From positions 1-56,426 of the forward strand of contig CACZIO010000013.1 of the NCBI GenBank assembly GCA_902781215.1: a stretch of DNA of 56,426 nt. Reading direction: 5' to 3'. The translations under genes and the position numbers were made by a program. Source of the DNA: an uncultured Lachnospiraceae bacterium (GTDB lineage: Bacteria; Bacillota; Clostridia; Lachnospirales; Lachnospiraceae). This document shows positions 5,104 through 34,229 of this stretch, piece after piece (within the stretch, counting starts at the first letter, position 1; each line of letters opens with the position of its first letter). Under the pieces are notes generated by a model, which did no database searches, was not told the DNA's origin, and saw nothing but the letters and a program-made list of their open reading frames with translations.

Positions 5104-5187
5104 AACGCTTGAACCTGACATTTCAGTAAAAGGTGGTGTTTTATAAAAAAAGCATCCTGCATGCGTATGGAACCCAGCGATTAAGCA

Positions 5188-5238
5188 CATCGAATGTAAC
5201 GAGAAACCATTTGCGAGGTTTTCTCGTTACATTCGATG
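5188..5238. repeat. 19-bp perfect inverted repeat (hairpin) after the surface-protein gene
   Basis: Arms at 5188-5206 (CATCGAATGTAACGAGAAA) and 5220-5238 are perfectly complementary around a 13-base loop. It lies 85 bases after the stop codon. There is no T-tract on either side, so it is not a textbook intrinsic terminator; it could be a processed 3' hairpin or an old recombination or insertion site. The rest of the 5104-5472 gap shows nothing recognisable. Confidence 0.7.
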
Positions 5239-5472
5239 ATGCGGTAATAACATAAGTGGTAATCATAATAATCTTTCTGAACAACTATCCTTTTGAAATA
5301 TCGTCTGAAGAATTATTGACTGTCATAGAGGGTATTAATCGAGGATCCGTGGGTGAAAGAACTCAGGGAAGATTGTTGGAAAGCGAAGCGGGGAACAGTT
5401 CGCAGTATCATCTTTGAGTCTTATATCATATATACGTGGCCTTGCTTGACAACAAACATTGGTGATTTACTA

Positions 5473-6375
5473 ATGAAAAAAATACTGTTTTTATTTATAG
5501 CTTTGGGAATACTTATTTGTCCTTCGACAGCCATTTTTGCCAAGGGAAATGAATATACTGAGGGGGACCTTGTATATATAATTGAACGTGGAGGAATTAT
5601 TATTACAGGATATTTTGGAGACGAAAAAACTGTAGTTATTCCGAAGAGTATTGCCGGTATGCCTGTATCTGAAATAGGTGAGAAGGCTTTCACAGGTACC
5701 TATGTAACGAAGATAATACTTCCTGAAAGTATAATGAAGATATCTGAACAATCTATTCCATCTAATTGTCAAGTGGAATATGAAAGTAGGGGACAATCTG
5801 CCCTGGAAAAGAATAATCCGGATAAGGAACAGAGTGAAGAATCAGAAAATAGCATGAGTGAAAATGTGCCTCTTGAAGTGGATTCTGGAAACTTGACGCA
5901 AGAGGATACTAGAAAGGATACTGATTCAACAGCAGTACAAGATTCGAAAACATTGGGACTGTATAGTGGGGCTGATGATAAGTCAGGTCATAATAGTTCT
6001 GTTGATGATAAAAGCAAGATTAATAAAAACAATACGGAGCCTATAATAGGAAATACTTCTATTTACGATGCAAGTGAGAGCCATTTGGAAAGAGCAACTA
6101 TTGATGAATTTGAGGATGTACTGGAGGATAATCCAGAAGATTCAGTAGTACAGGCTATACCATCTGAAAAAACTAATCCTTTGAAATCTGCCCATGGGCA
6201 TGAATCTTCTTTAGAAAGTAGTACTGTCACAGAGGAGGGAGACCCAGAAACTGAGGGCGCAGTTCGAGGGGATAATAGGAAAAATGCCATTGATAAAGTG
6301 TTAAGTGTCATTATAATTAGTGGTCTTATCGTGTTTATTGTAAATATCATGAGAAATAAAAGAGGAAAAACGTAA
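5473..6375 (+). CDS. Small membrane-anchored BspA-like LRR protein
   Basis: This 300-residue protein starts at the ATG that begins a clear signal peptide (MKKILFLFIALGILICPSTA). The frame is open 120 bases further upstream, but those residues are not signal-like. Residues about 27-95 hold a partial LRR_5 (BspA-type) unit (VVIPKSIAGMPVSEIGEKAF, then KIILPESI). Residues about 100-270 are a low-complexity Ser/Asp/Glu-rich stretch, probably an extended stalk. A single hydrophobic segment (VLSVIIISGLIVFIVNIM) followed by RNKRGKT anchors the C-terminus with a short positive tail inside. The likely topology is an extracellular LRR displayed on a stalk. Codon use is AT-richer than in genes further right. 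Only about two LRR strands are present, far fewer than typical BspA proteins, so it may be a fragment-derived gene. Function unknown. Confidence 0.7.
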   Translation: MKKILFLFIALGILICPSTAIFAKGNEYTEGDLVYIIERGGIIITGYFGDEKTVVIPKSIAGMPVSEIGEKAFTGTYVTKIILPESIMKISEQSIPSNCQVEYESRGQSALEKNNPDKEQSEESENSMSENVPLEVDSGNLTQEDTRKDTDSTAVQDSKTLGLYSGADDKSGHNSSVDDKSKINKNNTEPIIGNTSIYDASESHLERATIDEFEDVLEDNPEDSVVQAIPSEKTNPLKSAHGHESSLESSTVTEEGDPETEGAVRGDNRKNAIDKVLSVIIISGLIVFIVNIMRNKRGKT

Positions 6376-6633
6376 TAATGCTTGCTAATGCAAATATTAC
6401 ATAACCAGCTGGAGGGAGTGAGCGTGGCCCGTGATTAAAAAGAACGGACTTATGCCTGTAAACATCGACAACTATATTATCATCAAGGCAGAGCGAGCAT
6501 GTAAATTCATCAACAAATTGTACCTGACGCGGGTTTTGAGAAGCAGGTCGGACAGTCTATTATCACATACTTGGTGCCCCTTCTAATTACCCGTGTCTAA
6601 CAGTTTCTGCGGTTCAGTGGAAAGAGCGTAGAG

Positions 6634-6742
6634 GAGAGCGTGGAAGAAATTGGCTTGGAATGTGGCTTATGACAAATCACTATCTTAGCCGCGTATTTAA
6701 AGGAGTTTAGGGGCGTTGAGTGTTGAGTATGTGGGCGGCAAG
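6634..6742 (+). pseudogene. Relic of an AraC-family regulator (C-terminal HTH)
   Basis: Three short frames read in order give the end of an AraC-type helix-turn-helix: ESVEEIGLECG (6634-6666), then after a frameshift MTNHYLSRVFKGV (6669-6707), then ALSVEYVGGK (6713-6742), matching the family pattern S.EEIA...G....YFSRVFK...G.SP.EYR. At least two frameshifts make it non-functional. The rest of the gap 6376-6979 has no intact gene; upstream words (from about 6430) may be more of the same decayed locus, but I cannot identify them. It may once have regulated the neighbouring cluster (inference). Confidence 0.6.
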
Positions 6743-6979
6743 ATGATTTTGCCACCACGGGGGGTGTGGAATTCACATAACCAATAATGGAATTACTTAT
6801 TCCAAATTAAGAATTAAGGGCTGTTACCTTGCATATATTTTACCAGATATGTACTTGTAACGCATTGTTCTCCTCATTTTTATGGGGATTTTAAGAACGG
6901 TTTTTTCGTTCAGCAAGCACTAATTAGCATAGTTGCTTTCCTAAAGTAGATAGCAACTCTAAATGACACAGGACATCAA

Positions 6980-8257
6980 ATGACCAACGAACAATCTACT
7001 CTCCTGGCTTTGCTTTCAAATGCCTTGTTTAATAAATCGATCGATCTTAAGCAAGACGATTATAACTGGGAAAAGATATATCAGGAGGCTAAGGAACAGG
7101 CTGTAGCCCCATTGGTATTTCATACACTGGATCAGGATCGTATTGACAGCATGCCTTCTGAGCTGTATGAAACCTGGAGAAAAAACGCTACCTTTACTCT
7201 TGTTAATAACGTCCGCATATCACATAACCATCTTCTTGTGCACCAGTGGATGACAGAGAATCAGATCCCGTATGTGATCTTGAAAGGGGTTGCCTCATCA
7301 CACTACTATCCGGTACCGGAGTACCGTGCCCTGGGGGATGTCGATTTTCTTATTCCAAGAGACTACATGCAGAAGGTCGACAGTATTATGAAAAAGCATG
7401 GTCTAACGCCCGCTGAAAACGGGCACGGATTCCATGTCGCTTATACTGGAAATAGAATGTGCATGGAAGCCCATTTTGATGTCACAGATGTTCCAAACGG
7501 TAAAACCGGTGATGCGATTCATATGTATCTTGAAGACATTTTTCAGATGTCCTCAATGCAGATGACGTCTGGCGGCGAGATGGTTTTGCCGTCTCCCTTC
7601 CACCACGGACTGGTTCTGCTTTTACACACTTGTCGGCACATGATGGAATCAGGAATAGGGCTGAGGCACCTCTGTGACTGGGCTGTGTTTGAGAATAGCT
7701 TTACAGATAATGAATTCAGAAATCTGTTCGAAGAGAAGCTTAGGGAAATGGGCCTCTGGCGCTTTGCCCAGGAGCTGACAAAAGTCTGTATTCTTTACCT
7801 CGGTGTGGAGGACAGGGAATGGGTTCGAAACGATGGATTAGATTCTGAGTCGTCAGCCATATCGCCTGATAAAGAAATACACGGAGAAAATGAGTTTGCT
7901 TTGACAGTAGAACTGATGGAGGACATTCTTTGCAGCGGCAATTTTGGAATGAAGGACACAAATCGGGGGATTGAAAGCTTGTTAATATCAAAATCAGGCA
8001 AGAACGATTTGCAATCGCCCGCGGATGTTCTTCTCCAATTCTACAGATCAGTTAATAACGTAGTGTATTATTACTGGCCATTTGTCAAAAAGGCAAGGAT
8101 TTTACTTCCGGTTGGATGGGTCTACTTTGGAGGCAGGAGAATCATAAGAGGTATTACCGGGAAGAGAAAACCGTTGAATGTAAAAAACATGATCGAGGGC
8201 GCATCAGAGAGAAGAAACATATACAAAGAACTGCACCTTTTTGAAACGGACTCGTGA
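6980..8257 (+). CDS. Nucleotidyltransferase family protein (NTP_transf_5 type)
   Basis: This 425-residue protein fits the uncharacterised nucleotidyltransferase family often annotated NTP_transf_5. The family pattern is visible: IPYVILKGVASSHYYP (about 96-111, with the invariant LKG), then YRALGDVDFLIP (about 115-126, with the G-D-x-D metal-binding motif), then MCMEAHFDV (about 158-166) and a helical His-rich part (HHGLVLLLHTCRHMM, about 210-224). From family knowledge, such proteins recur in peptide-modification loci beside HPr-kinase-like and PqqD genes, where they are thought to transfer a nucleotidyl group; the substrate is not established. It heads the same-strand series 6980-19444. Residues about 288-302 form a Ser/Asp-rich insertion. 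The start ATG has a weak AGGAC site in front. Fold confidence is good, role tentative. Confidence 0.8.
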   Translation: MTNEQSTLLALLSNALFNKSIDLKQDDYNWEKIYQEAKEQAVAPLVFHTLDQDRIDSMPSELYETWRKNATFTLVNNVRISHNHLLVHQWMTENQIPYVILKGVASSHYYPVPEYRALGDVDFLIPRDYMQKVDSIMKKHGLTPAENGHGFHVAYTGNRMCMEAHFDVTDVPNGKTGDAIHMYLEDIFQMSSMQMTSGGEMVLPSPFHHGLVLLLHTCRHMMESGIGLRHLCDWAVFENSFTDNEFRNLFEEKLREMGLWRFAQELTKVCILYLGVEDREWVRNDGLDSESSAISPDKEIHGENEFALTVELMEDILCSGNFGMKDTNRGIESLLISKSGKNDLQSPADVLLQFYRSVNNVVYYYWPFVKKARILLPVGWVYFGGRRIIRGITGKRKPLNVKNMIEGASERRNIYKELHLFETDS

Positions 8258-8447
8258 AGCTGCAGCCGTCAGAGGAATCACGACAGAAGAATGATTGATT
8301 ACTCTCGATTCATTTCATTAACTATATACTGAAAACTATTTCTGTGGCACATGCGACTTAAATCGATAAATGCTGGGAAATGAAATAATGTGTCCGGACT
8401 AAGTCTTCTCTATTGATAGCTCAACTTCTTAGAGTGACAGAAAGAAT

Positions 8448-9350
8448 ATGATACAAACCTACCGTTTTGCAGACAGAACCATTGAAATCCACCCGGTCTC
8501 GGACTACATTCATGAGTTCTGCAGAGAGTATCGGGTGGAGAAGGAAACGGATTCTCCTCAGATGATACCGGACTTTTCTGTCTCGACGACACAGGAGGAT
8601 ATTGATTATGAGCGGACAAGATCTGAACAGACAGCCATAAAGGAAGGCCACGCTCCCTATCATTATTCTGACGCATATTTGGAGACACTTGCGCTTTACC
8701 GCAAGATTGCCGAGAAGATGCCGGCCTATGACACCGTTCTGTTCCATGGATCTGTGATTGCGGTGGAGGAAGCGGGAGGCCCGCCTCTGTGCGAACCGAC
8801 GGAAGCATATGCTACAAGGGATGTATATGCTACGACAGAAAAACATGCCACAACGGATGCCGATCCCGACTGTATTCAAACTACCCGGCAGGCATACCTG
8901 TTCACCGCGAAGAGCGGAACCGGCAAGTCAACTCATGCCCGCCTGTGGCGGGAAATGCTGGGAGCTCGTGCGGTGATGGTCAATGATGATAAGCCGCTGA
9001 TACGTGTGACGAATCGTGGCGTCCTCGCCTACGGCACGCCCTGGGATGGCAAGCACCGGCTGAGCAGCAACATCTGCGTCCCCCTGAAGGCAGTCTGTAT
9101 TCTGGAGCAGTCCCCGGAAAACCACATCCGCCGGATCACCCCGACGGATGCCATGCCATTCCTGCTGCAGCAGGTTTACCGCCCGTCAGATCCGCGAATG
9201 CTTGCCAGGATCCTGGAGCTGATTGACAGAATGGCGCAGTCAGTAAGCTTCTATAAGCTGGCCTGCAACATGGATCCGGAGGCGGCACAATTATCTTACC
9301 ATACGATGGTGACAGATGAATCATCAATGCCTATAATAGAAAGGGTGTGA
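8448..9350 (+). CDS. HPr kinase/phosphorylase-like protein (peptide kinase candidate)
   Basis: This 300-residue protein is shorter than and distinct from true HprK, but has the kinase core: a P-loop AKSGTGKST (about 154-162), VNDDKPLIR (about 178-186), YGTPWDGKHRLSSN (about 195-208), and a C-terminal YKLACNMDPEAA. In lasso-peptide loci of the paeninodin type, homologues phosphorylate a Ser of the precursor; here the only visible short substrate is the 33-residue peptide at 9833. Residues about 115-135 are an insertion of degenerate repeats (AYATRDVYATTEKHATTDAD) just before the P-loop, so this linker has expanded by tandem duplication. The stop overlaps the longest possible frame of the next gene, arguing for co-translation. 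A decayed second copy of the C-terminus sits at 22630-22749. The substrate assignment is inference. Confidence 0.78.
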   Translation: MIQTYRFADRTIEIHPVSDYIHEFCREYRVEKETDSPQMIPDFSVSTTQEDIDYERTRSEQTAIKEGHAPYHYSDAYLETLALYRKIAEKMPAYDTVLFHGSVIAVEEAGGPPLCEPTEAYATRDVYATTEKHATTDADPDCIQTTRQAYLFTAKSGTGKSTHARLWREMLGARAVMVNDDKPLIRVTNRGVLAYGTPWDGKHRLSSNICVPLKAVCILEQSPENHIRRITPTDAMPFLLQQVYRPSDPRMLARILELIDRMAQSVSFYKLACNMDPEAAQLSYHTMVTDESSMPIIERV

Positions 9351-9385
9351 ACGGTAAGATGATTTTGCATAGAAAGGGTACCGGG

Positions 9386-9646
9386 ATGAAATTGAATAAA
9401 GACTTCCTGACACACAACATGTCGGAGGATTACTACCTCGTTCCCGTGGGAGGAACCGACTTTTCCGGCATTGTCAAGGGCAATAAGACCATGGGGGTCA
9501 TAATAGAACTCCTGAAAAATGAGACCACAGAGGATCAGATTATTTCCGCCATGAAAACGCGCTTTGACGCCCCGGAGGAAGTATTGACGAGGGACGTGGA
9601 GAAGGTCCTTGCTGAACTAAGGAAAATCGGAGCGTTGGATGAGTAA
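9386..9646 (+). CDS. PqqD-family peptide chaperone (RRE domain)
   Basis: This 86-residue protein starts at the ATG at 9386, preceded by AAGGGTACCGGG; a GTG in frame at 9347 overlapping the kinase stop is the alternative. The fold signature of PqqD/RiPP recognition elements is visible: YYLVPVGG, then GNKTMGVIIELLKN (G.....I...L), ETTEDQIISAMKTRFD and a final VEKVLAELRKIGAL helix. PqqD-type domains bind the leader part of a precursor peptide and present it to a modifying enzyme. Free-standing copies of this size are typical of lasso and related RiPP clusters. Its position between the kinase and the small peptide makes that peptide the obvious client (inference). Confidence 0.85.
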   Translation: MKLNKDFLTHNMSEDYYLVPVGGTDFSGIVKGNKTMGVIIELLKNETTEDQIISAMKTRFDAPEEVLTRDVEKVLAELRKIGALDE

Positions 9647-9758
9647 TGAGCCGGATGGGAGATGCGGCTTAAAACCCGGGGGTGAGCCAGAGACGTCGCC
9701 GGTGACCAATGGCGATGAGATAAAGCGGTATTACGATTGATATGGACTGGATAGTCCG

Positions 9759-9787
9759 TTGAAAACCTGTACACTGTACAAGATACT
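9759..9787 (+). promoter_or_regulatory. Promoter with embedded operator-like repeat before the 33-residue peptide
   Basis: TTGAAA (9759-9764), a 17-base spacer and GATACT (9782-9787) form a plausible sigma-A promoter. The spacer contains TGTACACTGTACA (9768-9780), two copies of the palindrome TGTACA one base apart, as expected for a dimeric regulator sitting between -35 and -10. It gives a leader of about 40 bases to the ATG at 9833. Seen by eye, not tested. Confidence 0.5.
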
Positions 9788-9832
9788 GAAGCAAAGAAAC
9801 GATTTAGGAAATGTTACCAGGAGGACAACAAG

Positions 9833-9934
9833 ATGAAAGAGAAATACGAAAACGTGGAGATGGAAGTGATCGAGTTCGAAGGGGAGGATATAGTGAGGAC
9901 TTCTCCTCTTATAGAAGGCGAGGGAGAAGATTGA
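9833..9934 (+). CDS. 33-residue acidic peptide, candidate RiPP-type precursor
   Basis: The peptide begins MKEKYENVEMEVIEFEGEDI and ends VRTSPLIEGEGED. It has an excellent ribosome binding site (AGGAGG, about 9 bases before ATG) and a candidate promoter of its own. A short charged N-terminus with a hydrophobic/acidic alternation (VEMEVIEFE) could be a leader that docks into the PqqD-type protein at 9386, leaving a tail containing Thr-Ser-Pro; the Ser or Thr could be the target of the adjacent HPr-kinase-like protein. From memory, short clostridial peptides with K-Y-E-x-P-x-M-E-V-x-E-F-type starts occur beside such genes, but I cannot verify this here. No Cys, and no Gly positioned as in lasso cores (Gly1...Asp/Glu8-9) is convincing. 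It is too short to be certain, but the context is strong. Confidence 0.6.
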   Translation: MKEKYENVEMEVIEFEGEDIVRTSPLIEGEGED

Positions 9935-10080
9935 TGTAAGTACTGAAATAATACAAGATCCAGAGTTGTTTCTATTGGTTTAAATACGGGGAACGATTCT
10001 TTTATCATAATCAAATAAGATATTCTCTGTATTGCTCTGGTAATTGTCGGATTTTACAGACCTGAAAGGAAGGGAGACTC

Positions 10081-13000
10081 ATGAACGGAAAACGCTTGAT
10101 TGCCTGTGCAATGGCCGGATTACTGTCCTTGCAGACAGCTTTGTCCATGCCGGGAATATATGCTGTGGCGGCAGAACCAACGACGGAAGTGACTGACAGT
10201 ACAGTTCTCTCTTCCGAAGATACTTCTCAGACAGAAGAGGATACGACATCCTCTGATTCAGGAAATGAAGGAGTTGACAATTCGTCATCATCAGATGAAT
10301 ACGATGTGTCATCCGAAGGTGGAGAAGGTCAGTCGATAGAAGAGGACCAGGGTAATACCAGTAACGAAGATTTTATCGAGAACGACACCGATATGCCCGA
10401 TGTAGAGAACGGAGAGGGTGTAGATGCTGAGACGCAGGTGCAGCCTGATTCCGGGAACCAGCAGGATGAGGGAAATGCGATCCAGGAAGATAAAACCGTG
10501 ACGGAGCTTCCCGAAGATGGTTCCCAGTCCGAAGTTGTGACAGAGATCCCTGTGGAGCAGACGGTTGAAACGGAAGTCCCTGTAGACATAGCACCTGTCG
10601 AGATCACAGAAGAACTTCCCGCGGTCGGCTCCGATGATAATGATGCTCTTTTTGAAGAGTATGTAGACGGTCTGTTCCATGGAGGCGCAGCGAAGAATCG
10701 TGGCAAACTGAAAGCAAAGAGAGTCCGGCAGTTTGATGGAGCAGCGGGGCTTGTTTATGATACGATTCAGGCTGGAGCCAAACAGATCGCAGTAGGAGAA
10801 AGAGCTTCTACGAAATTTGTTTTCACCAGGGAAGACCTGGGCTATGCATCGACCGCATGGTCAGCCTCTGATCTTGGCGTTTCTGAAATTGTGACGGATG
10901 GCGCCATATCGGAAACTGCGCAAGATGCAGCACTTCAGAAATTCAGGGAGGATGTTAACATATCCGATATTATAGATGCTCTCCTGGCATCCAATCCATA
11001 TGACTTTTACTGGTATGATAAGACGGCGGGGACACCTTCCGGTTATTCTGTGGGCGCAGAGTGGGATGGGAGCGAATATAGGATTTATATCAATCAATAC
11101 TCTGTGAGCTTCCCTGTTGCGCAGGAGTACGCCAAATCTGCTTATGAGATTGACACAGCGAAGGTCTCCGCACCATTGACGGCTGCGGAAAATGCGCGGG
11201 CGATTATTAACGAAAATGCAGGAGTGGATGATATTGCAAAACTGACTGCTTATAAAGATATTATCTGCGACTGGGTGGATTATAATCACAGTGCTGCAGA
11301 TAATGAGAATACTCCTTACGGGAATCCATGGCAGCTGATTTGGGTCTTTGATGGAAATCGTGATACAACCGTGGTCTGCGAGGGATATTCAAAGGCATTT
11401 CAATATCTGTGTGATGAATCGACCTTCACAGATTCAAAAATTTCCTGCCGAACCGTCACTGGTAACATGGCGGGAGGTACGGGGGCCGGGGGCCATATGT
11501 GGAACCTGGTTACCCTGAACGACGGGAAAACCTATCTGGCAGATATCACGAACTGTGATGAAGGCTCTGTTGGTGCGCCGGATCTCCTGTTCCTGGCATC
11601 CTGCGCTTCAGGAAATGTAAGCGAAGGATACCGGTTTTTCTGTGATGAGACATCAATTGATTACATTTATGACAGTGATACCACATCCTTGTACTCCGAG
11701 GAAGAACTGACTGTCTCCGGGACGGCATACGATCCGGCGAGTATTCCGGAGGAGATTGCGTATTCTGGCGATTGTGGGGAAAATGCGGTCTGGAGCCTCG
11801 AGGAAGGCGTCTTGACAATCTCGGGCTCTGGGACGATGACGGACTTCGATAGCCTTGATTCGGTCCCCTGGAGAAAATCCCTTGATGAGATTAATAAGGT
11901 CGTCATTGAGGATGGTGTGACTTCAATCGGTAGCTTTGCATTTGCAGGCTGTACGGCACTGACCAGTGTGACGATTCCGGTGAGTGTCGGAACGATTGGT
12001 GCTTCCGCCTTTGAGAATACGAGCCAGGAGAAGGATATCTATTATGCTTCTTCTCTTTCGGCGTGGAATCAAATCTCTTTAAACGAAACGGGAAATGACA
12101 GCCTGAGCAGTGCTGCCATGCATTATGTAGTTCAAATCCATATTTCTGCCGATGCGAATACAACGGTGCGAGTGAGAGTCGGATCTGCAGATGCTGTCGA
12201 GGAGGAATCGGATGAATCCCTTCTCTCAGACGGTGACTATGTGGACAGCGGGACGATTCTGACAGTCAGCAGGACGCCGGGAACCGGATATGAACTAATC
12301 GGTCAAGAGCAGGAGGAAATAACGGTTGGCGGTGATGATGTCGAGATAACAGCGTCATCGAAGATCCCCACATATACAGTGACGCTCCTTTACGAAAATG
12401 GAGAAGTACCGACCTACAGCGTATCTGATCTCACGGCTGTAGAGCGCGGTACTGCTATCACGGTGACAGCAGGTGCAGCCAAAGAAGGCTATGAGTTCGC
12501 CGGTTGGTATGAAACAAACGGAAAACTTCTGACAGCAGAGGATAGCTATACGATTTCTGTCTATACGGATGTTACCATCGAAGCCCGTTATCAGAAAACA
12601 AGTGGTTTGGTCCACTTTGTATCTAATGATCGAGTAATCAAATCTGTGGCTTGTTCTTCTATCTCGGAGCAGGATTTCCCTGTGCCACCGACACCCATGT
12701 TTGGCTTTGCTTTTGCCGGTTGGGATCAAAATGTCGAGCAGATTAATGCCGGCTTGAGTGAAGGGAAGAACGTGACCGTAAAGGCGCTTTTTTCACCCGC
12801 GCCCAGTGCAGAAGGATTTGCTGTTTCAATTTATAACGGGGAGAAGGAGACTCCCGACATTCGTACATTCCGGGAAAGCAGTATTGTATCAATTAAGGCT
12901 GAAACCGTCTCCGGAAAGAATTTCTCCCATTGGCTTCTGGATGGAGAACTTTTGTCTTATAACACAACGGCTGCATTCAGGGCTACGAAGGCGTGCACAT

Positions 13001-16000
13001 TAAAGGCAGTATATTCCACTGAGGAAGTTCAGGCACAGGGGACAGCGGTCCTGAGAACAGCAATCTATAACAATGCGACCAGGAAGTTGGTTATTAATTC
13101 ATATCTGACGGCTCCGGATGGTGCGGTGATTCGTAAAGCCGGGCTGGTTGCAGCATCGGAACAGAGTGCAAAATATAATCCCTCTGATGAACTCACCAAT
13201 GCTAATGCCGACTATGTTAAATCTCTGGCTGCAGCAGAGGGTAAAGGCGGGGCTGTATCCTATACGTGGACAAAGACAAAGGTCAACCCTGGAGATGTGT
13301 GGTATGCGCGCGCATATCTTAGCTATGAATTGGATGGAAGTGTAGAGACTATCTATGGGGATCTTCGCGAGATACATGCAGGAGATGACTTTGATACTGC
13401 TGAGAAAGGTACCGCAGAGATCAAATCCTATGAGTATTTAGATGACATAAAGAAAGCAAAATTCGTCGCTTATCTGACAGTCCCGGATCAAGGCGTGATT
13501 GAGAAGTCCGGACTGGTGGCAGCATCAGCTGACACCTTTGATCCCGCAGCGGATATCCTGACATCATCCAATGCAGCATATGCCAAATCTCTTGCAACAG
13601 CTGTAGGCAAAACCGGTGCAGTCTCCTACACCTGGACGAAGACCAAAGTCGAGCCCGGCGACATCTGGTACGCTCGTGCCTGGCTGGTCTATAAGGATGC
13701 GGATGGAAAGGAGCATACCGTATACGGGCCTCTGGAGACCCTGGATACCTCCGGTTTCATAAAGACATATGAAGCGCCGACTTCGGTCAGCCTGAATAAT
13801 CAGGGCATTGTCTCAATGCAGATCAGCGAGACCCAGCCCCACACAGTCATGCTGGGCCTTTACCGGCAGGCTGCGGCTGCGTCCGGAACGATGTCGACCA
13901 TGTCCGTGAAGGGCGCCAGTCTGCGCAATGCCCCCGCGGCGGATGCTGACGAGCTGGTCGCGGTTGTTCCTGCGCGAATCAACGGGGAGACGGAGTATTC
14001 GGTCAATGTCAGCAACCTGATCAGTGAAGCAGGGACCTACTATGTGACCGCAAAGGCGGTTGGCTCGGCGGACGAGAAAAACGCCCGCGATATGACTGTC
14101 GGAACGGATTCAGCGGTGTCGTCGGATCCGGTTCCCTTCACACGTCCCGACCAGTCACTTGCAGTTCCTGCAAATGTCACCTGGGATTCGGAGACCTACG
14201 GCAGGGCCCGCTGGAGCGAAGTGCCTGAAGCAGATTCCTACCAGGTCATGCTCTACAGCGGAGATGACATTGTCGCCTCCCGGAATATCAACACGACATA
14301 TTTCAACTTCAGTTCCGGCTGGATCGATTACAACAACATCGCCTCGAAACAGTATACCTTCACCGTGACGGCCATGAGCGGCAATATCTCTGAGATTTCG
14401 AATTCGGCGCAGTCAGATCGCTCTGCTGTGCTCGGTGAGCTCCCCAGCCGGGATCCTGTCGCGATCGTCACACAGCCGGCGGATAAGTACGGCTCTCTTG
14501 GGAGGACAGTGACGGCGAGCCTCGCCGCCTCCGGCATCGGTCTGACCTATGACTGGTACGTGGACGGGGAGAAGATCACGGACGGAGCAGATGATGCGAC
14601 GGTTAAGCTGGACAGCAGCAAAGCCCGGACCATGTCTGTATACTGCACGGTGCACGATGCCTTTGGCAACAACGTGACTTCCGAGCAGGCCCAGGTCACG
14701 ATCGTGGACGACTCTCCCATACAGGGATTCATTCAGGTCCAGCCCTCGGATGTGATGACAGATCCGGATCTCCAGTACAAGGAGTTTCGCATTGTGACGG
14801 CTTCTCTGCAGTCCGGGTTCAGAGCGACCTATAAGTGGTACGTCGACTATGGCAGCGGCTATACCTTCAACGGCAGTACGTCTACAGAGACCCTGATCAA
14901 GGCGACACCGTCCAATAATGGTGCCAAGGTCAAGTGCCATGTGATCGTGACAGCTCCGACCGGCAGGGTCGTCTTTGATGAGGATTCCGCCGAAGCCGTT
15001 CTCCATGTCAACGAGAAGCCAATCGTGATCGAGCAGGATCTTGACGACGACTATTACAGGGAGACGGAGCGGTTTGTATATCTCTATGCCGTGGGTGAGA
15101 ACCTCACCTATCAGTGGTATTTTGACGGTGAGCCTGTCAGCGGCGCGACGACTTCTGTATTCGACCTGACCCGGGTGACAAATACATTTTCATCGGTAGC
15201 ATCCCGGCTTTGCTGCAGTGTCAGCAACGGAACCATCAGTGTGGATTCCAAATCGGCACGGATCCATAATGGAGGAAATCCTGCGACAGCTGTTACCATC
15301 AGGCAGATCGGCAGCCTGGATACAGAACACCTGGCTGTGGGTGACGTTGTGAACCTGCAGGCAGTACTTACGCCGGCCAAGAGTACATCCGAAGTCCGGT
15401 GGCAGTCCACCGACCCGTCGGTCGCGACGGTCAATAACGGGACCGTGACGATCCTTGGCCAGGGCTCTTCTCTGATCACGGCTTTCGCGAATAACAAGAG
15501 GGCTGAACTTCTGCTTACTGCGGACAGCTACAGGATCGAATTCGACCCGGCTGGAGGCGTTTTTGCAGATGGCGAAACAGCCAATCGTGTCGTCAGAGCG
15601 GTTCAGGACAGCGATGTGGAATTCCCCTCCGTCTTCAGGGAGGACAATACCTTCCTGGGATGGACCCTGGACGGCTCGACGGTGGTGAATTCTCTGAAGG
15701 CGACGGACAATCTCCAGCTGTACGCAAAGTGGGAGAAGAGCACGGAGCAGGAGGACGCGGAACTTGCGATCAAACAGGATCTCGCGGAAAAACAGTACGC
15801 AAGGATCGGCACTGACGCCCTCTTTGAAGTGGTGACCAACGGCGCCAAGGTTAAAAAGTACCAGTGGTATGTCATGGACCGTTCCGGCTCTGGCTGGACG
15901 AAGGTCAATACCGGTGTCACCAATGACGGGGCCCGGACCAGCCTGACCGTCCCTGCCTCTGCATCCAACAATGGTTATACCTACAAGGTGATCGTAACAC

Positions 16001-16776
16001 CATTCAAAGGACAGCCGGTGGAGAGCAGATCGTCTGTCCTGCTCACAGGCAGTACGGAAGCGGAACCCCAGGACAACATGAAGCTCTTCTTCACGTCCAA
16101 CCCTGTCGATGTGAAAACCTATCCGGGAGAGACGGCAGTCTTTTCCGTTGCCGTGAACGTCGAGGATGCGGCATTCACATGGCAGTACACTGTGCACGGC
16201 GGGGAAGAATGGGTGACACTGGACGGTGAAACGGGCAGTACCATGACCCTGGAAAATGTCCAGGAAGATATGAACGGCAGACTCTTCCGCTGTATCGCCA
16301 CGTATGACGGAGAAACCAGGATTTCCGGCACTGCGACACTGGATCTCAACGCAGCAAAGGTCAAGTCGGTTACGATCTCTGCTTTAAACGAATATATTTC
16401 CGTGGACATAAGCCATCCTACCGAAGAACAGATTGAGATAACCGGTTATGTAGATAAGGAGGAGGGCGAAGGTGACGATAAGTACTTGATCTATGAGTGG
16501 CAGGAAAGCTTTGATGGCGGCACAACCTGGGGACCGGCCGAAAACGCATCTTATGATGATCCTTCTGTTTTCAGACGGGATGTTCCTCCTGGACTCACAG
16601 CAGAGACCACCATCTTTACATACCGCCTGGTTGTAAACGGTGTGAAATCAAATACTGTAGACATCATGGTAACGCAATACAATTCTGAACCGGAGTGCTC
16701 GTGCGGGTGTGCTATGCCTGGATGCAGTTGCGGCCCTGATTGCCCGGTTTGCGGCAGTGGTGAGGAAATGCCCTGA
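10081..16776 (+). CDS. Giant secreted modular protein with transglutaminase-like domain
   Basis: This 2,231-residue protein starts after AAGGAAGGGAGACTC and opens with a signal peptide ending near AVAAE (about residue 33). Residues 35-200 are acidic and Ser/Glu-rich. Residues about 340-500 form a transglutaminase-like cysteine-protease fold with the triad in order: Cys in VVCEGYSKAF (about 432), His in GGHMWNLV (about 470), Asp in TYLADITN (about 484). Then a BspA LRR part (VVIEDGVTSIGSFAFAGC, about 610-660), Flg_new repeats (YEFAGWYETNGKLL), two copies of a 120-residue module (about 985-1100 and 1110-1225), an Fn3-like region, Ig-like domains (LTYDWYVDGEKI, LTYQWYFDGEPV), a Big_2 domain (VRWQSTDPSVATV), and a tail with six Cys (CSCGCAMPGCSCGPDCPVCG). 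No LPXTG signal. It lies inside the peptide-modification cluster. Codon use turns GC-richer from about 13600, suggesting a mosaic. Confidence 0.85.
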   Translation: MNGKRLIACAMAGLLSLQTALSMPGIYAVAAEPTTEVTDSTVLSSEDTSQTEEDTTSSDSGNEGVDNSSSSDEYDVSSEGGEGQSIEEDQGNTSNEDFIENDTDMPDVENGEGVDAETQVQPDSGNQQDEGNAIQEDKTVTELPEDGSQSEVVTEIPVEQTVETEVPVDIAPVEITEELPAVGSDDNDALFEEYVDGLFHGGAAKNRGKLKAKRVRQFDGAAGLVYDTIQAGAKQIAVGERASTKFVFTREDLGYASTAWSASDLGVSEIVTDGAISETAQDAALQKFREDVNISDIIDALLASNPYDFYWYDKTAGTPSGYSVGAEWDGSEYRIYINQYSVSFPVAQEYAKSAYEIDTAKVSAPLTAAENARAIINENAGVDDIAKLTAYKDIICDWVDYNHSAADNENTPYGNPWQLIWVFDGNRDTTVVCEGYSKAFQYLCDESTFTDSKISCRTVTGNMAGGTGAGGHMWNLVTLNDGKTYLADITNCDEGSVGAPDLLFLASCASGNVSEGYRFFCDETSIDYIYDSDTTSLYSEEELTVSGTAYDPASIPEEIAYSGDCGENAVWSLEEGVLTISGSGTMTDFDSLDSVPWRKSLDEINKVVIEDGVTSIGSFAFAGCTALTSVTIPVSVGTIGASAFENTSQEKDIYYASSLSAWNQISLNETGNDSLSSAAMHYVVQIHISADANTTVRVRVGSADAVEEESDESLLSDGDYVDSGTILTVSRTPGTGYELIGQEQEEITVGGDDVEITASSKIPTYTVTLLYENGEVPTYSVSDLTAVERGTAITVTAGAAKEGYEFAGWYETNGKLLTAEDSYTISVYTDVTIEARYQKTSGLVHFVSNDRVIKSVACSSISEQDFPVPPTPMFGFAFAGWDQNVEQINAGLSEGKNVTVKALFSPAPSAEGFAVSIYNGEKETPDIRTFRESSIVSIKAETVSGKNFSHWLLDGELLSYNTTAAFRATKACTLKAVYSTEEVQAQGTAVLRTAIYNNATRKLVINSYLTAPDGAVIRKAGLVAASEQSAKYNPSDELTNANADYVKSLAAAEGKGGAVSYTWTKTKVNPGDVWYARAYLSYELDGSVETIYGDLREIHAGDDFDTAEKGTAEIKSYEYLDDIKKAKFVAYLTVPDQGVIEKSGLVAASADTFDPAADILTSSNAAYAKSLATAVGKTGAVSYTWTKTKVEPGDIWYARAWLVYKDADGKEHTVYGPLETLDTSGFIKTYEAPTSVSLNNQGIVSMQISETQPHTVMLGLYRQAAAASGTMSTMSVKGASLRNAPAADADELVAVVPARINGETEYSVNVSNLISEAGTYYVTAKAVGSADEKNARDMTVGTDSAVSSDPVPFTRPDQSLAVPANVTWDSETYGRARWSEVPEADSYQVMLYSGDDIVASRNINTTYFNFSSGWIDYNNIASKQYTFTVTAMSGNISEISNSAQSDRSAVLGELPSRDPVAIVTQPADKYGSLGRTVTASLAASGIGLTYDWYVDGEKITDGADDATVKLDSSKARTMSVYCTVHDAFGNNVTSEQAQVTIVDDSPIQGFIQVQPSDVMTDPDLQYKEFRIVTASLQSGFRATYKWYVDYGSGYTFNGSTSTETLIKATPSNNGAKVKCHVIVTAPTGRVVFDEDSAEAVLHVNEKPIVIEQDLDDDYYRETERFVYLYAVGENLTYQWYFDGEPVSGATTSVFDLTRVTNTFSSVASRLCCSVSNGTISVDSKSARIHNGGNPATAVTIRQIGSLDTEHLAVGDVVNLQAVLTPAKSTSEVRWQSTDPSVATVNNGTVTILGQGSSLITAFANNKRAELLLTADSYRIEFDPAGGVFADGETANRVVRAVQDSDVEFPSVFREDNTFLGWTLDGSTVVNSLKATDNLQLYAKWEKSTEQEDAELAIKQDLAEKQYARIGTDALFEVVTNGAKVKKYQWYVMDRSGSGWTKVNTGVTNDGARTSLTVPASASNNGYTYKVIVTPFKGQPVESRSSVLLTGSTEAEPQDNMKLFFTSNPVDVKTYPGETAVFSVAVNVEDAAFTWQYTVHGGEEWVTLDGETGSTMTLENVQEDMNGRLFRCIATYDGETRISGTATLDLNAAKVKSVTISALNEYISVDISHPTEEQIEITGYVDKEEGEGDDKYLIYEWQESFDGGTTWGPAENASYDDPSVFRRDVPPGLTAETTIFTYRLVVNGVKSNTVDIMVTQYNSEPECSCGCAMPGCSCGPDCPVCGSGEEMP

Positions 16777-16794
16777 AAATCCGGGCACAGGTCA

Positions 16795-16914
16795 TGTATA
16801 ACCGTCAAGCGCGCTCAGAATCTGAGGGCGGATCAAGTGAAACAGCCAAGTGATTTCAGAACCCGGGACGGATTCTGTATAACAGTCATCCGCTCTCAGA
16901 ACCTGAGAGCGGAT
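16795..16914. repeat. Two 39-bp direct repeats, each a hairpin, 81 bp apart
   Basis: Copies at 16795-16833 and 16876-16914 share the frame TGTATAAC.GTCA..CGC followed by CTCAGAA.CTGAG.GCGGAT. The second folds perfectly (CCGCTCTCAG-AAC-CTGAGAGCGG); the first keeps most pairs. They fill the gap between the giant protein and the signal peptidase and have no T-tract. They may stabilise or attenuate read-through mRNA (inference). Confidence 0.65.
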
Positions 16915-16956
16915 GTTACGAAACAGTGATAACCGGGATTAGTGATTCATAGTGAC

Positions 16957-17391
16957 ATGAGCACCGGATTTGAAGACATCCTTTCCAGAGATGGAAAGCT
17001 GGTCTATCGAACAAAAGGCATAAGTATGGAGCCCATGCTCCGGCAGAACAGGGACCTGGTGATCATCCGGGTTCCTGATTGTCGTTTGAAAAAATACGAT
17101 GTGGCGCTGTACCGGCGGGGCGGAAGTTACATTCTCCACAGGGTCATCCGCGTGTGTGACGACCACTACCTGATCCGCGGGGACAACACCTACGCCCTGG
17201 AGACGGTGCCGGATACAGCCGTGATCGGCGTGCTGGACAGCTTTCACAGAAAAGGAAAACAATACAGAACCACAGACCGGAGCTATCAATGGTATATCCG
17301 GCTGTGGAACTTCATTTATCCTCTCCGGGCCTTTTGCTTTCGCGTCAGGAGGTTTGCGGGCAGGATTGCCCGGAAACTCCATCTTCTGTAG
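16957..17391 (+). CDS. S24/S26-type signal peptidase-like protein
   Basis: This 144-residue protein has the S26 blocks: YRTKGISMEPML (about 21-32) with the nucleophile Ser in G-x-S-M-E-P, then KKYDVALYRRGGSYILHRVI (about 46-65) where a His follows the strand, as in Ser-His (SipW/archaeal-type) rather than Ser-Lys enzymes, and YLIRGDNT (about 74-81). The C-terminus (WNFIYPLRAFCFRVRRFAGR) is amphipathic and basic. There is no N-terminal membrane anchor, unusual for a classic leader peptidase but common for short members encoded beside PqqD and ABC-exporter genes. Start: the first in-frame ATG is chosen; GTG at 16942 would add five residues, and neither has a strong ribosome binding site. It may cleave the small peptide or process the secreted proteins nearby (inference). 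Confidence 0.75.
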   Translation: MSTGFEDILSRDGKLVYRTKGISMEPMLRQNRDLVIIRVPDCRLKKYDVALYRRGGSYILHRVIRVCDDHYLIRGDNTYALETVPDTAVIGVLDSFHRKGKQYRTTDRSYQWYIRLWNFIYPLRAFCFRVRRFAGRIARKLHLL

Positions 17392-17518
17392 GAGCGTGAG
17401 TCCGGCTGCGGCGGGGACGCTCTGCGCCCCCGGAAGGACACTTGTCTCGACGAGGAGTGAAAGTGAAGTTTACGCGGAGCAGGAATCATGGTAATTGTGA
17501 TGGAAATCGGTACACCGG

Positions 17519-19444
17519 ATGAAGAATCGGATGAACGAGGGAGGACCGGCAGGCGGAGAAGAGCACGTCTGTGATAATAATACGCCTGCCGACAGAAATA
17601 GACCAGGCAGTATGATCACCTGGCTGCTCTTTGTTGTCGGCGGCAGCAGGTGGCAGATCCTCCTGCTGGTCGTGGTGCAGGCCCTGCACGGGGCCTCAGG
17701 GGTGTTCTATGCATTGTGTCTGCGGAATATTGTGGATGCCGCTGTGGCACACCGGACAACTGCTTTCTGGAGAGAGATTCTGCTGGTCGTACTGCTGGTA
17801 GCCGCCCAGCTCCTCCTCCGCGCCATGATCCGGTGGCTGACGGAGCTCTCGAAGGCGTCCATTGAAAATGCGCTGAAGAGACGCCTGCTGGATACCCTCC
17901 TGCACAGGGATTACCTGCGTGTCAGCGCTGTCCATTCCGGCGAGTGGATGAACCGGCTGACGAGTGACACGGTGGTCGTTGCGAACAGCTGCGTGGAGAT
18001 CGTACCGGGCATGACGGGCATGGTTGTCAAGCTCATCAGTGCTCTTGCCATGATCTTGTTGCTGGAGCCCCGCTTTGCCGCGATCCTGATTCCGGGAGGG
18101 CTGGTGCTGGTCCTCTTCACATGGCTTTTTCGCAGAAAACTGAAGCGACTTCATAAGGACATGCAGGAGGCAGACGGTCGGGTACGGATCTTCCTGCAGG
18201 AGCACCTGACCAGCATGCTGATGATCCGCTCCTTTGCTGCTGAGGACCAGACCATGGATCGGGCGCGGGAGAGGATGCAGGAGCATAAGGATGTCAGGAT
18301 GCGTAGAAACCGCTTTTCCAACCTCTGCAACATTGGCTTCGGGGCTGCCATGAACGGAATGTACGTCCTGGGCGTCGGCTGGTGCGGATACGGAATCCTG
18401 AGGGGGACGATCACCTTCGGGACGCTCACGGCCATTACGCAGCTGATCACCCAGATTCAGACCCCCTTTGCCAACATCACAGGATACCTGCCCAGGTACT
18501 ACGCCATGCTGGCCAGTGCCGAGCGACTGCGGGAGGCTGAGCTCCTGCCGGATGACGCAGCTGCTGCCATTTCCGGCGATGACAGCAGGAAAGAGCCGAT
18601 AGATGTCTTTCCCGGAAGTCCATATAAGAGACTTCGGAAAGATCCACTCTTGCGGGAATCGGTATCGGCACAGGGAGAACCTTCATCACCCCTTTCACTT
18701 GCAGAGGCTGTTTCATTCTATCAGGATCAGCTGACGGCTTTTGGACTGCGGGATGTATCTTTTGCCTACCTGCCTGCGGGAAACGTGCCACAGTCGGATC
18801 TGCAATTACATCAAAGGGAGAAAATGCCCCTAGTTCTGGAACACCTGTCGCTGGAGATCCGGAAGGGTGAGCATGTCGCATTCTGTGGACAGAGCGGCTG
18901 CGGAAAATCTACGACGCTGAAGCTCCTGATGTGTGTGTACCGGCTGGATGAGGGTCAGAGATATTACCTGTCGCAGGACGGAAAAGAGCATGCCATGACG
19001 GCAGCATTCCGCCGCCTGTTTGCCTACGTGCCTCAGGGAAATGCTCTGATGAGCGGCAGTATCCGGGAGGTGGTCAGTTTCGCGGATCCCGGTGCGGCGC
19101 ATGATGAGCAGAGACTCCGACGCGCACTTTCCATTGCATGCGCGGAGGACTTTGTCGGGGATCTTGCCAACGGGATCGATACCATCCTGGGAGAGCGGGG
19201 CATGAGCCTGTCGGAGGGTCAGATGCAGCGGCTTGCCATCGCTCGCGCGGTCTTTTCCAACGCCCCGATTTTGCTTTTGGATGAGGTGACCAGCGCCCTC
19301 GATGTAGAGACCGAAAAGCGCCTTCTGGAGAACCTGCGAGGCCTTCCGGACCGCACGGTTATTACTGTCACCCACCGCCCTACAGTCCTCTCCATCTGCG
19401 ACCGCGTCCTGCGTTTTGAAGAGGACGGGCGGATCATAAGATAA
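17519..19444 (+). CDS. ABC exporter (membrane domain fused to ATPase)
   Basis: This 641-residue half-transporter has a six-helix ABC exporter domain (about 30-340; WLLFVVGGSRWQILLLVVVQ begins helix 1) and a nucleotide-binding domain with Walker A CGQSGCGKSTT (about 455-465), the Q-loop region FAYVPQGNALMSGSIRE, signature LSEGQMQRLAIARA (about 563-576), Walker B APILLLDEVTSALD (about 581-594) and H-loop VTHRP. It lacks an N-terminal C39 peptidase, so leader removal would need another enzyme, for example the S26-like protein upstream. Between the two domains lies an unusual 75-residue insertion (about 345-420, rich in Ser/Asp/Pro). Its place at the end of the NTP_transf-kinase-PqqD-peptide series suggests it exports the modified peptide; a general exporter role cannot be excluded. 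The N-terminal 30 residues are polar, and the Met at 17612 is an alternative start. Confidence 0.85.
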   Translation: MKNRMNEGGPAGGEEHVCDNNTPADRNRPGSMITWLLFVVGGSRWQILLLVVVQALHGASGVFYALCLRNIVDAAVAHRTTAFWREILLVVLLVAAQLLLRAMIRWLTELSKASIENALKRRLLDTLLHRDYLRVSAVHSGEWMNRLTSDTVVVANSCVEIVPGMTGMVVKLISALAMILLLEPRFAAILIPGGLVLVLFTWLFRRKLKRLHKDMQEADGRVRIFLQEHLTSMLMIRSFAAEDQTMDRARERMQEHKDVRMRRNRFSNLCNIGFGAAMNGMYVLGVGWCGYGILRGTITFGTLTAITQLITQIQTPFANITGYLPRYYAMLASAERLREAELLPDDAAAAISGDDSRKEPIDVFPGSPYKRLRKDPLLRESVSAQGEPSSPLSLAEAVSFYQDQLTAFGLRDVSFAYLPAGNVPQSDLQLHQREKMPLVLEHLSLEIRKGEHVAFCGQSGCGKSTTLKLLMCVYRLDEGQRYYLSQDGKEHAMTAAFRRLFAYVPQGNALMSGSIREVVSFADPGAAHDEQRLRRALSIACAEDFVGDLANGIDTILGERGMSLSEGQMQRLAIARAVFSNAPILLLDEVTSALDVETEKRLLENLRGLPDRTVITVTHRPTVLSICDRVLRFEEDGRIIR

Positions 19445-19563
19445 GAGAGATATCATTGTGCGACAGTATGCGGACTGGTCAGGAATATGAAAGTGAGGAT
19501 CAGGCGCAATAAAGATATGCGCTTGTGAAAACTTATATTGTTTTATTAACGGAGGATGTAACA

Positions 19564-22500
19564 ATGAGCCCTACAAATGAAAACAGAAACATGGAAGAGG
19601 ACCTGCTGAACAGCGGAGGAGTGCCCGTGGCAGACGAGGCGGCGGAGTCGCAGACCCAGCCACCGGTCGCCTCAGCGCCCACCCCGTCCCGTCCTGAGGG
19701 CAATAAGCTCCCTCAGTGGACGCCCCTGGTCGCCACGGCTCTGATCGCCGCCCTGGTCGGCGGCGCGATCGGATATACGGTCAAGCCCGTAGCCAAGACG
19801 GAGGATTTGATCGTCACCGAGAATGTTACAGACCAGATCAATGCGGCAAACGCGGCAAATGCTCCCGGCAGCGTTGCGGCGGATGCCCCTGTCAAGGAGT
19901 ACACCCAGATCACCGACATCATGGACAATGCCCGTCACGTCGTGGAGGAGCGCTTCTACGCGGCGGACGGTTCCATCGTCGCCTGCGAGGACGGCTATGC
20001 CATCGTGCGCAAGGACTACGATGACAAGGGCAACCTGGTCGGGACCTCCTATTTCGACACGGCGGACCAGCCCTTTTTTGTCGAGAAGCTGGGCTACGCG
20101 TCCATGGAGATGACCTATGACGACGCCGGCAATAAGACCGGTGAGACCTACTACGACGCGAAGGGCGCGGTCGTCACCCTTGAGAATAAGAACTACGCCG
20201 GTATCAAGTACACCTACGACGAGAACAAGAACATCACCTCGGAGGAGTATTTTGACACGGAGGGCAATCCCATCCTGTCCGCCGACGGCTACCACCGCAG
20301 CGCCTACACCTGGGACGAGGACAAGCACCGCCTGACCGAGCGCTACTATGACCTCGACGGGAACCTGGTCGTGATGAAGAAGGGCTATGCCGGCGTCGAC
20401 CACCAGTACGATGACTTCGGCAACGATAAGAAATGCATCTACTACGACGCCGCCGGCCAGATCGCTGCCAACAAGGACGGCACCGTCATCGTCAAGCGCA
20501 CCTACAATAAGAAAAAGCAGGTCGTCCGCGAGGAGTATCGGAACGCCGACAACAAGCGCGCCATCCACTCCAAGCTCGGCTACTGCATCGTCGAAAAGGA
20601 ATACGACGACGCCGGAAACGTCACCTACCAGGCCTACTACGGCACCGACAAGAAGCCCCTTCGGCTCAAGGACGGCTACAATGCCCTCCGCCAGGAATAT
20701 GACGGCAACAAGCATGTCATCAGGGAGGCCTACTACATCGCCTCCATCCGGGACGAGGAAGATGCGGATGAGGAGACCAGCGATTCTGAGAGCCGGAATG
20801 GTCAGGAAAATCTGGATTCGCAGGGCCAAGATGGTCAGGAGAATCGGAAGGATCAGGATCAGAAAGACAAGGATTCGGAGGATGGAGAGATCACCGAAGT
20901 TCCCTACACCCTCAGCAAGGGCTACGCGTCCCTGACCCGGACCTACGATGAAAACGGCAACGTCCTCGAGGAGGCCTACTACGACGCCGACGGCCAGGAG
21001 ACTGTCTGCAAGGAAGGCTACAGCCGCTGGGTCCGCACCTACAACGAGGACAAGAAGGTGACCAGCGAGGCCTTCCTCAATACCGCTCAGGAGCCTGTCC
21101 TGAAAAAGTCAACCGGCTATGCGAAGGTGGAGTACACCTACGATGACAACGGCAACAAGCTGACCGAGTCCTATTTTGACACCGACGGCAATCCCGCGCC
21201 GGGCAGCAAGGGCTATGCCGGTGTCCAGTACACCTACAATGACATCAACAAGTGCACCAAGGAGGTCTACGTGGACGTGGACGGCAAGACCGTCGCGCCC
21301 GAGGCTCTGGGCTATGCCGGGATCTCCCGCGAATACAATGAGAACGGAGACCTGATCAGCACTGTGAACCTGGATGCCAACGGCCACGCGGTCGAGGCGG
21401 CCGCCGGCTACGAGGGCATGCAGACCACCTACGACGATGCCGGCCGCAAGACCGAGGAGTACTACACCGACAGCAAGGGCGACCTGGTCGACAGCGAGAA
21501 GGGCTACGCCAAGATGACCCACGCCTACGACGAGGCGACCGGCCTGGAGACCGAGGCCCGCTACTACAACGCCGCCGGTGATCCCGTCATGGTCAAAGGC
21601 GTCGCCCGCATGGAGTACGAATATGACCCCGCCGGCAACAAGACCGTCACCCGCAATTATGACATCGAGGACAACCTGATCGTCGACAAGGACGGCGTTG
21701 CTTATACACAGATGGAATACGACGACTGGAAGCGCGTCGTGAAGGAGACCTTCATCGGCGAGGACGGCCAGCCCCTCTTTGTCGAGTCCAAGGGCTATGC
21801 GGTCACGACCAAGGGCTATGACCACGGGACCAACGTCATCGACCAGGCCTATTTTGACACGGCGGACAATCCGGTCACCATTCCGGCAGGCTATGCCGCT
21901 ATGCACACGGATTACGACGCCAACAACAAGTCCGTCCGGGTCGACTACCTGGACCAGAACGGCAGCCCCGCCAGCCCCGCCAACGTCAAGTCTGGCTACT
22001 CCTCCGTCACCTACGAGCGCGATGACCGCGGCAACGCCCTCCTCGAGTCCTACCTAGATCAGGCCGGCGATCCCATCGTGGCGGCCTCCGGCTGCGCCGC
22101 TGTCCGCAAGGAGTACAATGACCTCAACAAGGTGACCAAGACCGAATACCTGGGCACGGACGGCAATCCGGTCGCCATCAAGAACGGCACCGCCGTCGTC
22201 CTCAACACCTATGACGACAAGGGCAACATGCTGACCGAGTCCTATCAGGACGTGGACGGTGACACCCACGCCATCACGAGCGACCCCAAGGCCAAGCCCG
22301 ACAAATACTACTCCTACACCGAGATCCGCAAGACCTACAATGACCAGAACAAGCTGACCGAGCAGGCCTACTACGACGCAGACGGCGACCGCGCCAAGTG
22401 CGCCCAGCAGTACTCCATCCAGCGATACGAATATGACAAGCTGGGCCGCCAGACCCTGACCTCCTGGTTCAACGTCAACGAGGAGCCCTACGTCAACGAC

Positions 22501-23147: not shown

Positions 23148-23277
23148 TGCCGATTGCCTCTATAATATCTTTATAAAAACCGTTTATAAGAGGAGACCAC
23201 AGATGCGTTATAAGCCATGGGATTTACGAGAAGATTTGTATACCCGGAACTGGAACAGGTGAAATACAGGTTTGAAC

Positions 23278-34110: not shown

Positions 34111-34229
34111 CGCAGGCGGACGCAAGTGATCCGCGTGATACAAGTGTTGCATGCGGGCTTGAGTGACGGCGGAGGATGGTGCGCATGCGTACCTGGCAAA
34201 ATGAGCAGGAAGAAGTCGGGAGAAAAGAG

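Follow-up and report, generated by a model that had tools for sequence, protein, structure and literature searches.

We analysed a 56,426-nucleotide stretch of DNA from an uncultured Lachnospiraceae bacterium (NCBI GenBank assembly GCA_902781215.1, contig CACZIO010000013.1; hereafter the window), in which positions 6980–19444 hold a plus-strand gene set for the modification and export of a 33-residue peptide. This locus is very likely a Clostridial pathway for a ribosomally synthesized and post-translationally modified peptide (RiPP) of the linear polyphosphorylated peptide (LPP) type, with LPP-like chemistry, and the best overall explanation is probably an LPP-type phosphopeptide pathway with secreted-protein partners. 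Relative to the available part of the published LPP description (Popov et al. 2026, PMC13381572), the different leader and the dispersed precursors beside secreted adhesin-like proteins are new.

LPPs were described from the lppAKBSDN genes of Paenibacillus alginolyticus; in the accessible text, LppK phosphorylates Ser3 of the core, LppS (Ser/His/Asp) cleaves in a manner dependent on the RiPP recognition element (RRE), no cyclase takes part, and deletion of lppN changed nothing in the heterologous host (PMC13381572). The window set matches this system gene by gene: an LppN-like NTP_transf_5 nucleotidyltransferase (6980–8257; PF14907, 6e-40), an LppK-like, HprK-type candidate peptide kinase (8448–9350), an LppB-like discrete RRE, or PqqD-like protein (9347–9646; PF05402, 9e-11), a precursor peptide of 33 amino acids (9833–9934), an LppS-like S26 (SipW/archaeal-type) leader peptidase with a putative Ser/His/Asp triad (16942–17391), and an LppD-like, MsbA-type ABC exporter (17519–19444; PF00664 and PF00005). 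Both systems have a short precursor with a Tyr-led leader and, close to where that leader stops, a Ser, at a Tyr-to-Ser distance, by our own count, of 19 residues here and 18 in the published family, and both lack a macrolactam cyclase. They differ in host (Clostridia here, Bacilli in the accessible text of PMC13381572), in the short, acidic tails found here, and in precursor location, which is dispersed and often beside secreted adhesin-like proteins here, whereas capsule loci are reported there. An earlier note on this DNA had named these genes together with a secreted giant protein, and all are present on the plus strand; its proposal of RiPP-like modification and export without a cyclase agrees with the published LPP set, a match that also favours phosphorylation as the likely main chemistry. 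Its comparison with lasso loci is corrected: the cluster is not a lasso remnant of some new sort, and the same five-gene set (kinase, RRE, S26 peptidase, ABC exporter and NTP_transf_5) defines the LPP family. As the note had stated, there is no C39 domain among the listed domain matches of the exporter, and the radical SAM, LanM and YcaO families are absent from the Pfam matches of the interval's large open reading frames (ORFs).

Conserved residues and a structural model are consistent with these assignments. In the NTP_transf_5 protein, LKG and D120xD122 are invariant across six aligned sequences. The kinase, aligned in a set of 10 sequences, carries the P-loop SGTGKST and gives no Pfam match; with its AlphaFold2 model (mean predicted local distance difference test score, pLDDT, of 84), the Foldseek matches at E ≤ 1e-3 include phosphoenolpyruvate carboxykinase (PEPCK) and HPr kinase (HprK/P) structures, the top HPr kinase structure standing at rank 8 (E = 1.5e-4), and its relative in locus L105 has an NCBIfam HPr(Ser) kinase match of 7e-6, under the cut-off. 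Residues 112–142 of the window kinase form an insert that is not found in nine aligned relatives and is modelled with low confidence; in L305 (9710, plus strand), G285 and G039, the kinase match lies within an open frame of 621–628 amino acids, where it is probably fused to another domain. The peptidase matches PF00717 and the NCBIfam archaeal-type signal peptidase (8e-5), both below cut-off. Its Ser28 and His66 are invariant in 10 of 10 aligned sequences, as would be expected of the Ser–His chemistry suggested earlier; Asp81 is likewise invariant, and Asp91, present in eight of the 10 (Lys in L074 and L075), would by its spacing be the counterpart of LppS Asp93. Neither the S26 profile nor that of the kinase brought up an LPP entry in the PDB.

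The cluster is real, and its five-gene set recurs together across Clostridia. Relatives of the window PqqD protein (E ≤ 1e-5) occur in 40 of 397 genomes of the same family, the window's genome included, and we read the neighbourhoods, each at most 20 kb long, of 20 such relatives and of 20 further PqqD-family places. The order kinase, RRE, S26, ABC, NTP_transf_5 recurs near the closest relatives (e.g. L067, L069, L071 and L077); other PqqD loci hold fewer of the five genes, and in L066 the RRE stands by itself in an unrelated context. Furthermore, when the kinase alignment was run against GTDB species, at least 585 relatives were confirmed, the best 80 of which were analysed as loci: 66 hold an RRE relative, 60 an S26 peptidase, 45 an ABC protein and 38 an NTP_transf_5 protein, with the full set of five in 22, four or more (kinase counted) in 51 and fewer than four in 29. 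These counts per locus are lower bounds because many contigs are short, and an ABC relative in a locus is not necessarily the exporter. Cultured carriers include Kandleria vitulina DSM 20405 (L178) and Faecalibacterium prausnitzii APC923/51-1 (L163). Single ORFs match both S26 and ABC (L282, 906, minus strand) or both S26 and NTP_transf_5 (L093, 14796, plus strand), which ties these pathway steps together; such ORFs are the S26 counterpart of peptidase-containing exporters.

Two 33-codon ORFs lie downstream of pqqD. The one at 9639–9740, overlapping the end of pqqD, was rejected as precursor on account of its lack of a precursor-profile score and of an NCBIfam match. The ORF at 9833–9934, likewise without an NCBIfam match, has an AGGAGG Shine-Dalgarno sequence 8 nt upstream of its ATG and scores 47 bits (E = 3e-12) with the precursor profile, a score that is not independent, this peptide being one of the 23 seeds. 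The 33-residue peptide of the earlier note is therefore upheld for the second of these ORFs and not for the first, and homologues of it were found beside the same genes in other genomes, so that the note withstands the refutation it had set for the lack of such a peptide. Its Ser24 is its sole Ser and is the predicted phospho-acceptor; F15, D19 and S24 are invariant in 20 aligned precursors.

Run against 121 sequences (the window and L065–L184), the 23-seed profile detected 51 precursors at E ≤ 1e-3, spread over 42 of them, a count that includes the 23 seeds and a locus, L184, that repeats L067; the best match in reversed control sequences reached 8.4 bits. The family consensus is [M]K-x-Y-x-x-P-x-M-E-V-I-x-F-E-x-E-D-V-I-T-T-S-G followed by a variable acidic tail, and the leader string YxxPxMEVIxFExEDVITTS has no match in the open-licence PMC literature. 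Pooling in later loci gave 93 precursors at E ≤ 0.05 and 79 at E ≤ 1e-3. Among the latter, 76 have the Ser in register (71 by one pattern, five by eye), and it is one residue off in L280, L282 and one of the L181 precursors. In the 71 that fit the pattern, the tail after the Ser has a median length of 14 residues, and these tails together contain 270 Asp/Glu and 34 Lys/Arg in 1205 residues. A Shine-Dalgarno sequence of at least 4 nt precedes 63 of 73 precursors with a definable start, compared with 227 of 1460 random positions, a comparison biased in the precursors' favour by picking the best-site start for each; 25 of the 73 have a single Ser. Five tandem precursors stand immediately before the kinase gene in L181 (685–1333), a contig labelled as a Synergistaceae metagenome-assembled genome, which may be a binning error.

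The precursors form a dispersed gene family, many of whose members lie away from the enzymes. A search guided only by the precursor alignment (E ≤ 0.01) located 55 places in 23 of the 397 family genomes, with eleven copies in genome G259, five in G266 and four each in G007, G240 and G282. The kinase profile (E ≤ 1e-30) matches 52 of the 397 genomes and 22 of the 23 precursor genomes (P = 8e-21, genomes treated as independent), the exception, G291, having a weaker kinase match; once the ten genomes that contributed loci to the kinase profile are set aside, the kinase is found in 12 of 13 precursor genomes (P = 7e-12). Of these 55 precursors, 40 come from 39 regions retrieved on the precursor match itself, and the other 15 stand in or beside loci already taken for their enzymes. 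In these regions, which span only 3.8–12 kb and are in some cases ended by the contig, four of the 40 precursors have a kinase, RRE or S26 gene (L270, L277 twice, L282) and 36 (36 of the 55 copies) have none. In G282, a single contig, the kinase-S26-RRE set lies near 255 kb, with neither an ABC nor an NTP_transf_5 relative seen in the 19 kb examined there, and precursors are located at 244, 439, 846 and 1296 kb. Similarly, G259 carries kinase, RRE, S26 and ABC genes on contig 14 and none of its eleven precursors there.

Secreted proteins recur as neighbours of these precursors. In the window, a 2231-residue giant (10081–16776) has a signal peptide, LRR_5, Flg_new and Big_2 matches, a Cys-rich C-terminus and no LPxTG. 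Its transglutaminase-like domain (residues 374–491) is missed by Pfam and was detected with a profile of three neighbour domains in a single-protein search (E = 1.4e-15); Cys433, His472 and Asp488 are, by our own placement, candidate catalytic-type positions. The earlier note listed this giant as one gene among the others; it belongs to the class of proteins whose genes repeatedly accompany the precursors. Within 400 bp of 71 of the 93 precursors lies a same-strand ORF of 250 amino acids or more (58 upstream, 13 downstream), and a signal peptide was called in 43 of the 58 upstream partners, compared with 76 of 431 other same-size ORFs in the same loci (P = 8e-18), and in six of the 13 downstream partners. 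Pfam, run on 22 partners, gave transglutaminase-like, LRR, CAP, PKD, laminin-G, F5/8 and GLUG matches in some and none in others. None of the 43 upstream partners with a signal peptide has an LPxTG or a C-terminal hydrophobic stretch, against a background of 0 and 7 of 76, which is a weak contrast; the L119 partner was flagged for an anchor by a cruder rule.

When the 71 neighbours are grouped by single linkage, the largest cluster, with 25 members, is marked by a C-terminal domain about 280 residues long (for example residues 580–853 in L148). It is undescribed: there is no Pfam match above cut-off in eleven tested, no NCBIfam match in three tested, and, for its model of two Ig-like-plus-helix repeats (pLDDT 93), nothing in the PDB at E ≤ 1e-3, the 50 chains listed being mostly antibody or other Ig-fold chains with low TM-scores. 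The domain occurs in 13 of the 397 genomes, 10 of which are precursor genomes (P = 1e-11). We also started from the domain itself, in 30 loci of which five had built the query and 25 were independent: in seven of the 25 the protein is accompanied by a precursor at E ≤ 1e-3 (L199, L203, L206, L207, L214, L219, L222), and in three by weak look-alikes at E 0.2–2 (L205, L209, L213). Within G259, core similarity correlates with partner similarity (r = 0.75 and Mantel P = 0.0012 for the 10 usable pairs out of 11), related cores being more alike than their partners. A combination of surface proteins with an LPP-type system has no match in the open-licence PMC literature, and the main text of the LPP paper (PMC13381572) nowhere uses the terms Clostridi-, Lachnospir-, surface protein, secreted protein, adhesin or orphan.

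Several observations weigh against an LPP-type pathway with secreted partners. The published precursor motif, YxxPxVLxHQxIxFETxxS / Px9Fx[T/A] in the accessible text of PMC13381572, is absent here, where the leader reads Px6F...EDVITTS; because of this we regard the window system as a variant that would work like LPP and not as a proven member. In the window peptide, moreover, Val replaces the usual Pro of the leader and the tail is very short. The window is an atypical case of the pairing: its precursor stands ahead of the giant, so that the giant is downstream and not upstream, there is one pair only, and the giant lacks the shared C-terminal domain, which has no match in the window's genome (G000). 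That genome holds only one precursor of this family, along with one PqqD protein above the family cut-off and one NTP_transf_5 protein. Across the family, 22 of the 93 precursors lack a same-strand neighbour of 250 amino acids or more within 400 bp, the 71 neighbours that were found include some pathway enzymes (e.g. in L075), and 15 of the 58 upstream partners have no signal peptide, by calls that follow a simple home-made rule. Fifteen of the 25 independent domain loci have no precursor beside the protein, and with the query genomes removed only two of five domain genomes are precursor genomes (P = 0.01); this and the other genome-level P values ignore phylogeny, and named contigs and numbered genomes partly overlap (as L183 and L184 do).

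Homology suggests how the pathway would operate. The RRE would bind the aromatic-led N-terminal half of the precursor and present it to the HprK-like kinase, which would add one or more phosphates to Ser24; the S26 peptidase would then cut off the leader around the E-D-I-V-R-T-S stretch, and the MsbA-type protein would export the short acidic product. The NTP_transf_5 enzyme may load a further group onto the phosphate; the PsmN-type nucleotidyltransferases of phosphorylated lasso peptides presumably add a sugar there. The enzymes would serve precursors that often adjoin secreted adhesin-like proteins, many of them remote from the enzymes. Because precursors pair with secreted neighbours, a pairing best explained by function on or with the neighbour, the exported phosphopeptide may act on or with the adjoining protein, a role suggested by the linkage to which we give a little less than an even chance. 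The peptide could be a ligand, an anchor or a maturation factor, three roles that the linkage data do not separate. A far more specific proposal, which we consider quite unlikely in this full form, is a two-part surface system: genomes would encode families of secreted adhesin-like proteins that have neither a sortase nor a membrane anchor, each protein with its own short phosphopeptide; one LPP-type enzyme set would modify all of the peptides in trans; and the exported phosphopeptide, possibly glycosylated or envelope-linked, would anchor its partner or be its obligate ligand, recognized by C-terminal domains like the two-repeat Ig-plus-helix one.

The peptide could instead be a plain LPP natural product, a signal or competition peptide, beside which the secreted neighbours are incidental, both being, for example, variable accessory genes of the same islands. 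The published core genes suffice for phosphorylation and leader removal, and no biological role is known in the accessible text of PMC13381572; the distribution here is patchy too, the same-genus genome G267 having no RRE, C-terminal domain, precursor or kinase match at the thresholds used. Against coincidence, secreted proteins also precede precursors whose regions were retrieved on the precursor match itself (27 of 40 with an upstream partner, 19 of those 27 with a signal peptide), core and partner co-vary within G259, and seven of the 25 independent domain-first loci have a precursor beside the protein. We hold this reading to be unlikely, if the weightiest of the alternatives. We think it improbable that the peptide is a secreted pheromone controlling expression of the adjacent surface-protein gene: being short, probably exported and one per target gene, it could in dispersed pairs allow gene-specific control, but no dedicated receptor or regulator gene is prominent beside the pairs in the arrangements inspected, where no systematic search was made.

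Very improbable, in our judgement, is a phosphorylated lasso peptide that relies on a cyclase and a B2 protease encoded outside this locus. The chains in the PDB nearest to the RRE profile are indeed the lasso B1 proteins TbiB1 (E = 0.0035) and TfuB1 (E = 0.0046), with no LppB entry at E ≤ 1; many precursors have a T-x-G-like junction, and the kinase, PqqD-like B1 protein, NTP transferase and exporter are common to paeninodin-type phosphorylated lasso clusters (as the available part of PMC13381572 lists them), from which the window set differs in having no cyclase C, no B2 protease and Tyr, not Trp, in the leader. Lachnospiraceae lasso clusters from the rumen, some of whose precursors lie by an HPr kinase, PqqD and nucleotidyltransferase, differ in having their own lasB/lasC and leaders such as MKTWTKPELEVLAIEETAQ (accessible text of PMC7533575). 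However, the B2 family (PF13471) has no match over cut-off in the 23 precursor genomes (sub-cut-off matches in G120 and G130) or in the window's own genome (two matches below), and no Asn-synthetase relative (E ≤ 1e-4, two AsnC queries) was found in the 80 kinase-centred loci, so a lasso system with a distant cyclase was rejected. Asp/Glu at ring position 7–9 does not look conserved in those precursors that were read by eye, several having none and a few one. The window's Asn_synthase protein lies 15 kb off in a LicD/TagD-like locus, and further Asn_synthase matches of this genome fall on different contigs. This 364-residue protein (34176–35270) has no evident glutaminase domain and adjoins LicD and a cytidylyltransferase-like protein; its locus is probably one for a cell-surface polymer and not a lasso cyclase.

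Around the cluster, a scan of positions 5050–10200 gave 17 promoter-like sites (11.1 expected) and no terminator-like sites (3.9 expected). A YD/MORN-like repeat protein (19525–22599) and a separate VanZ-family protein (23272–23901) come after the exporter and are possible additional cluster members; in L075 (5700–6923), similar repeats and a VanZ domain share a single ORF directly upstream of a precursor. At 154–5103 lies a second giant repeat protein (Big_2, Flg_new, CARDB), possibly truncated where the contig begins. To the eye, its C-terminus is similar to the YVRxYLxYxDxxG-type ends of some precursor partners (L107, L116 and L118); the precursor profile scored nothing beside it.

For the LPP family, described in 2026 without a known role, the dispersed pairing of precursors with secreted proteins provides a concrete lead in rumen and gut Clostridia. 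The published survey, as its available text describes it, sought precursors only within 5 kb of the enzymes (PMC13381572), and our results suggest that a search so limited would miss many of the precursors in these genomes.

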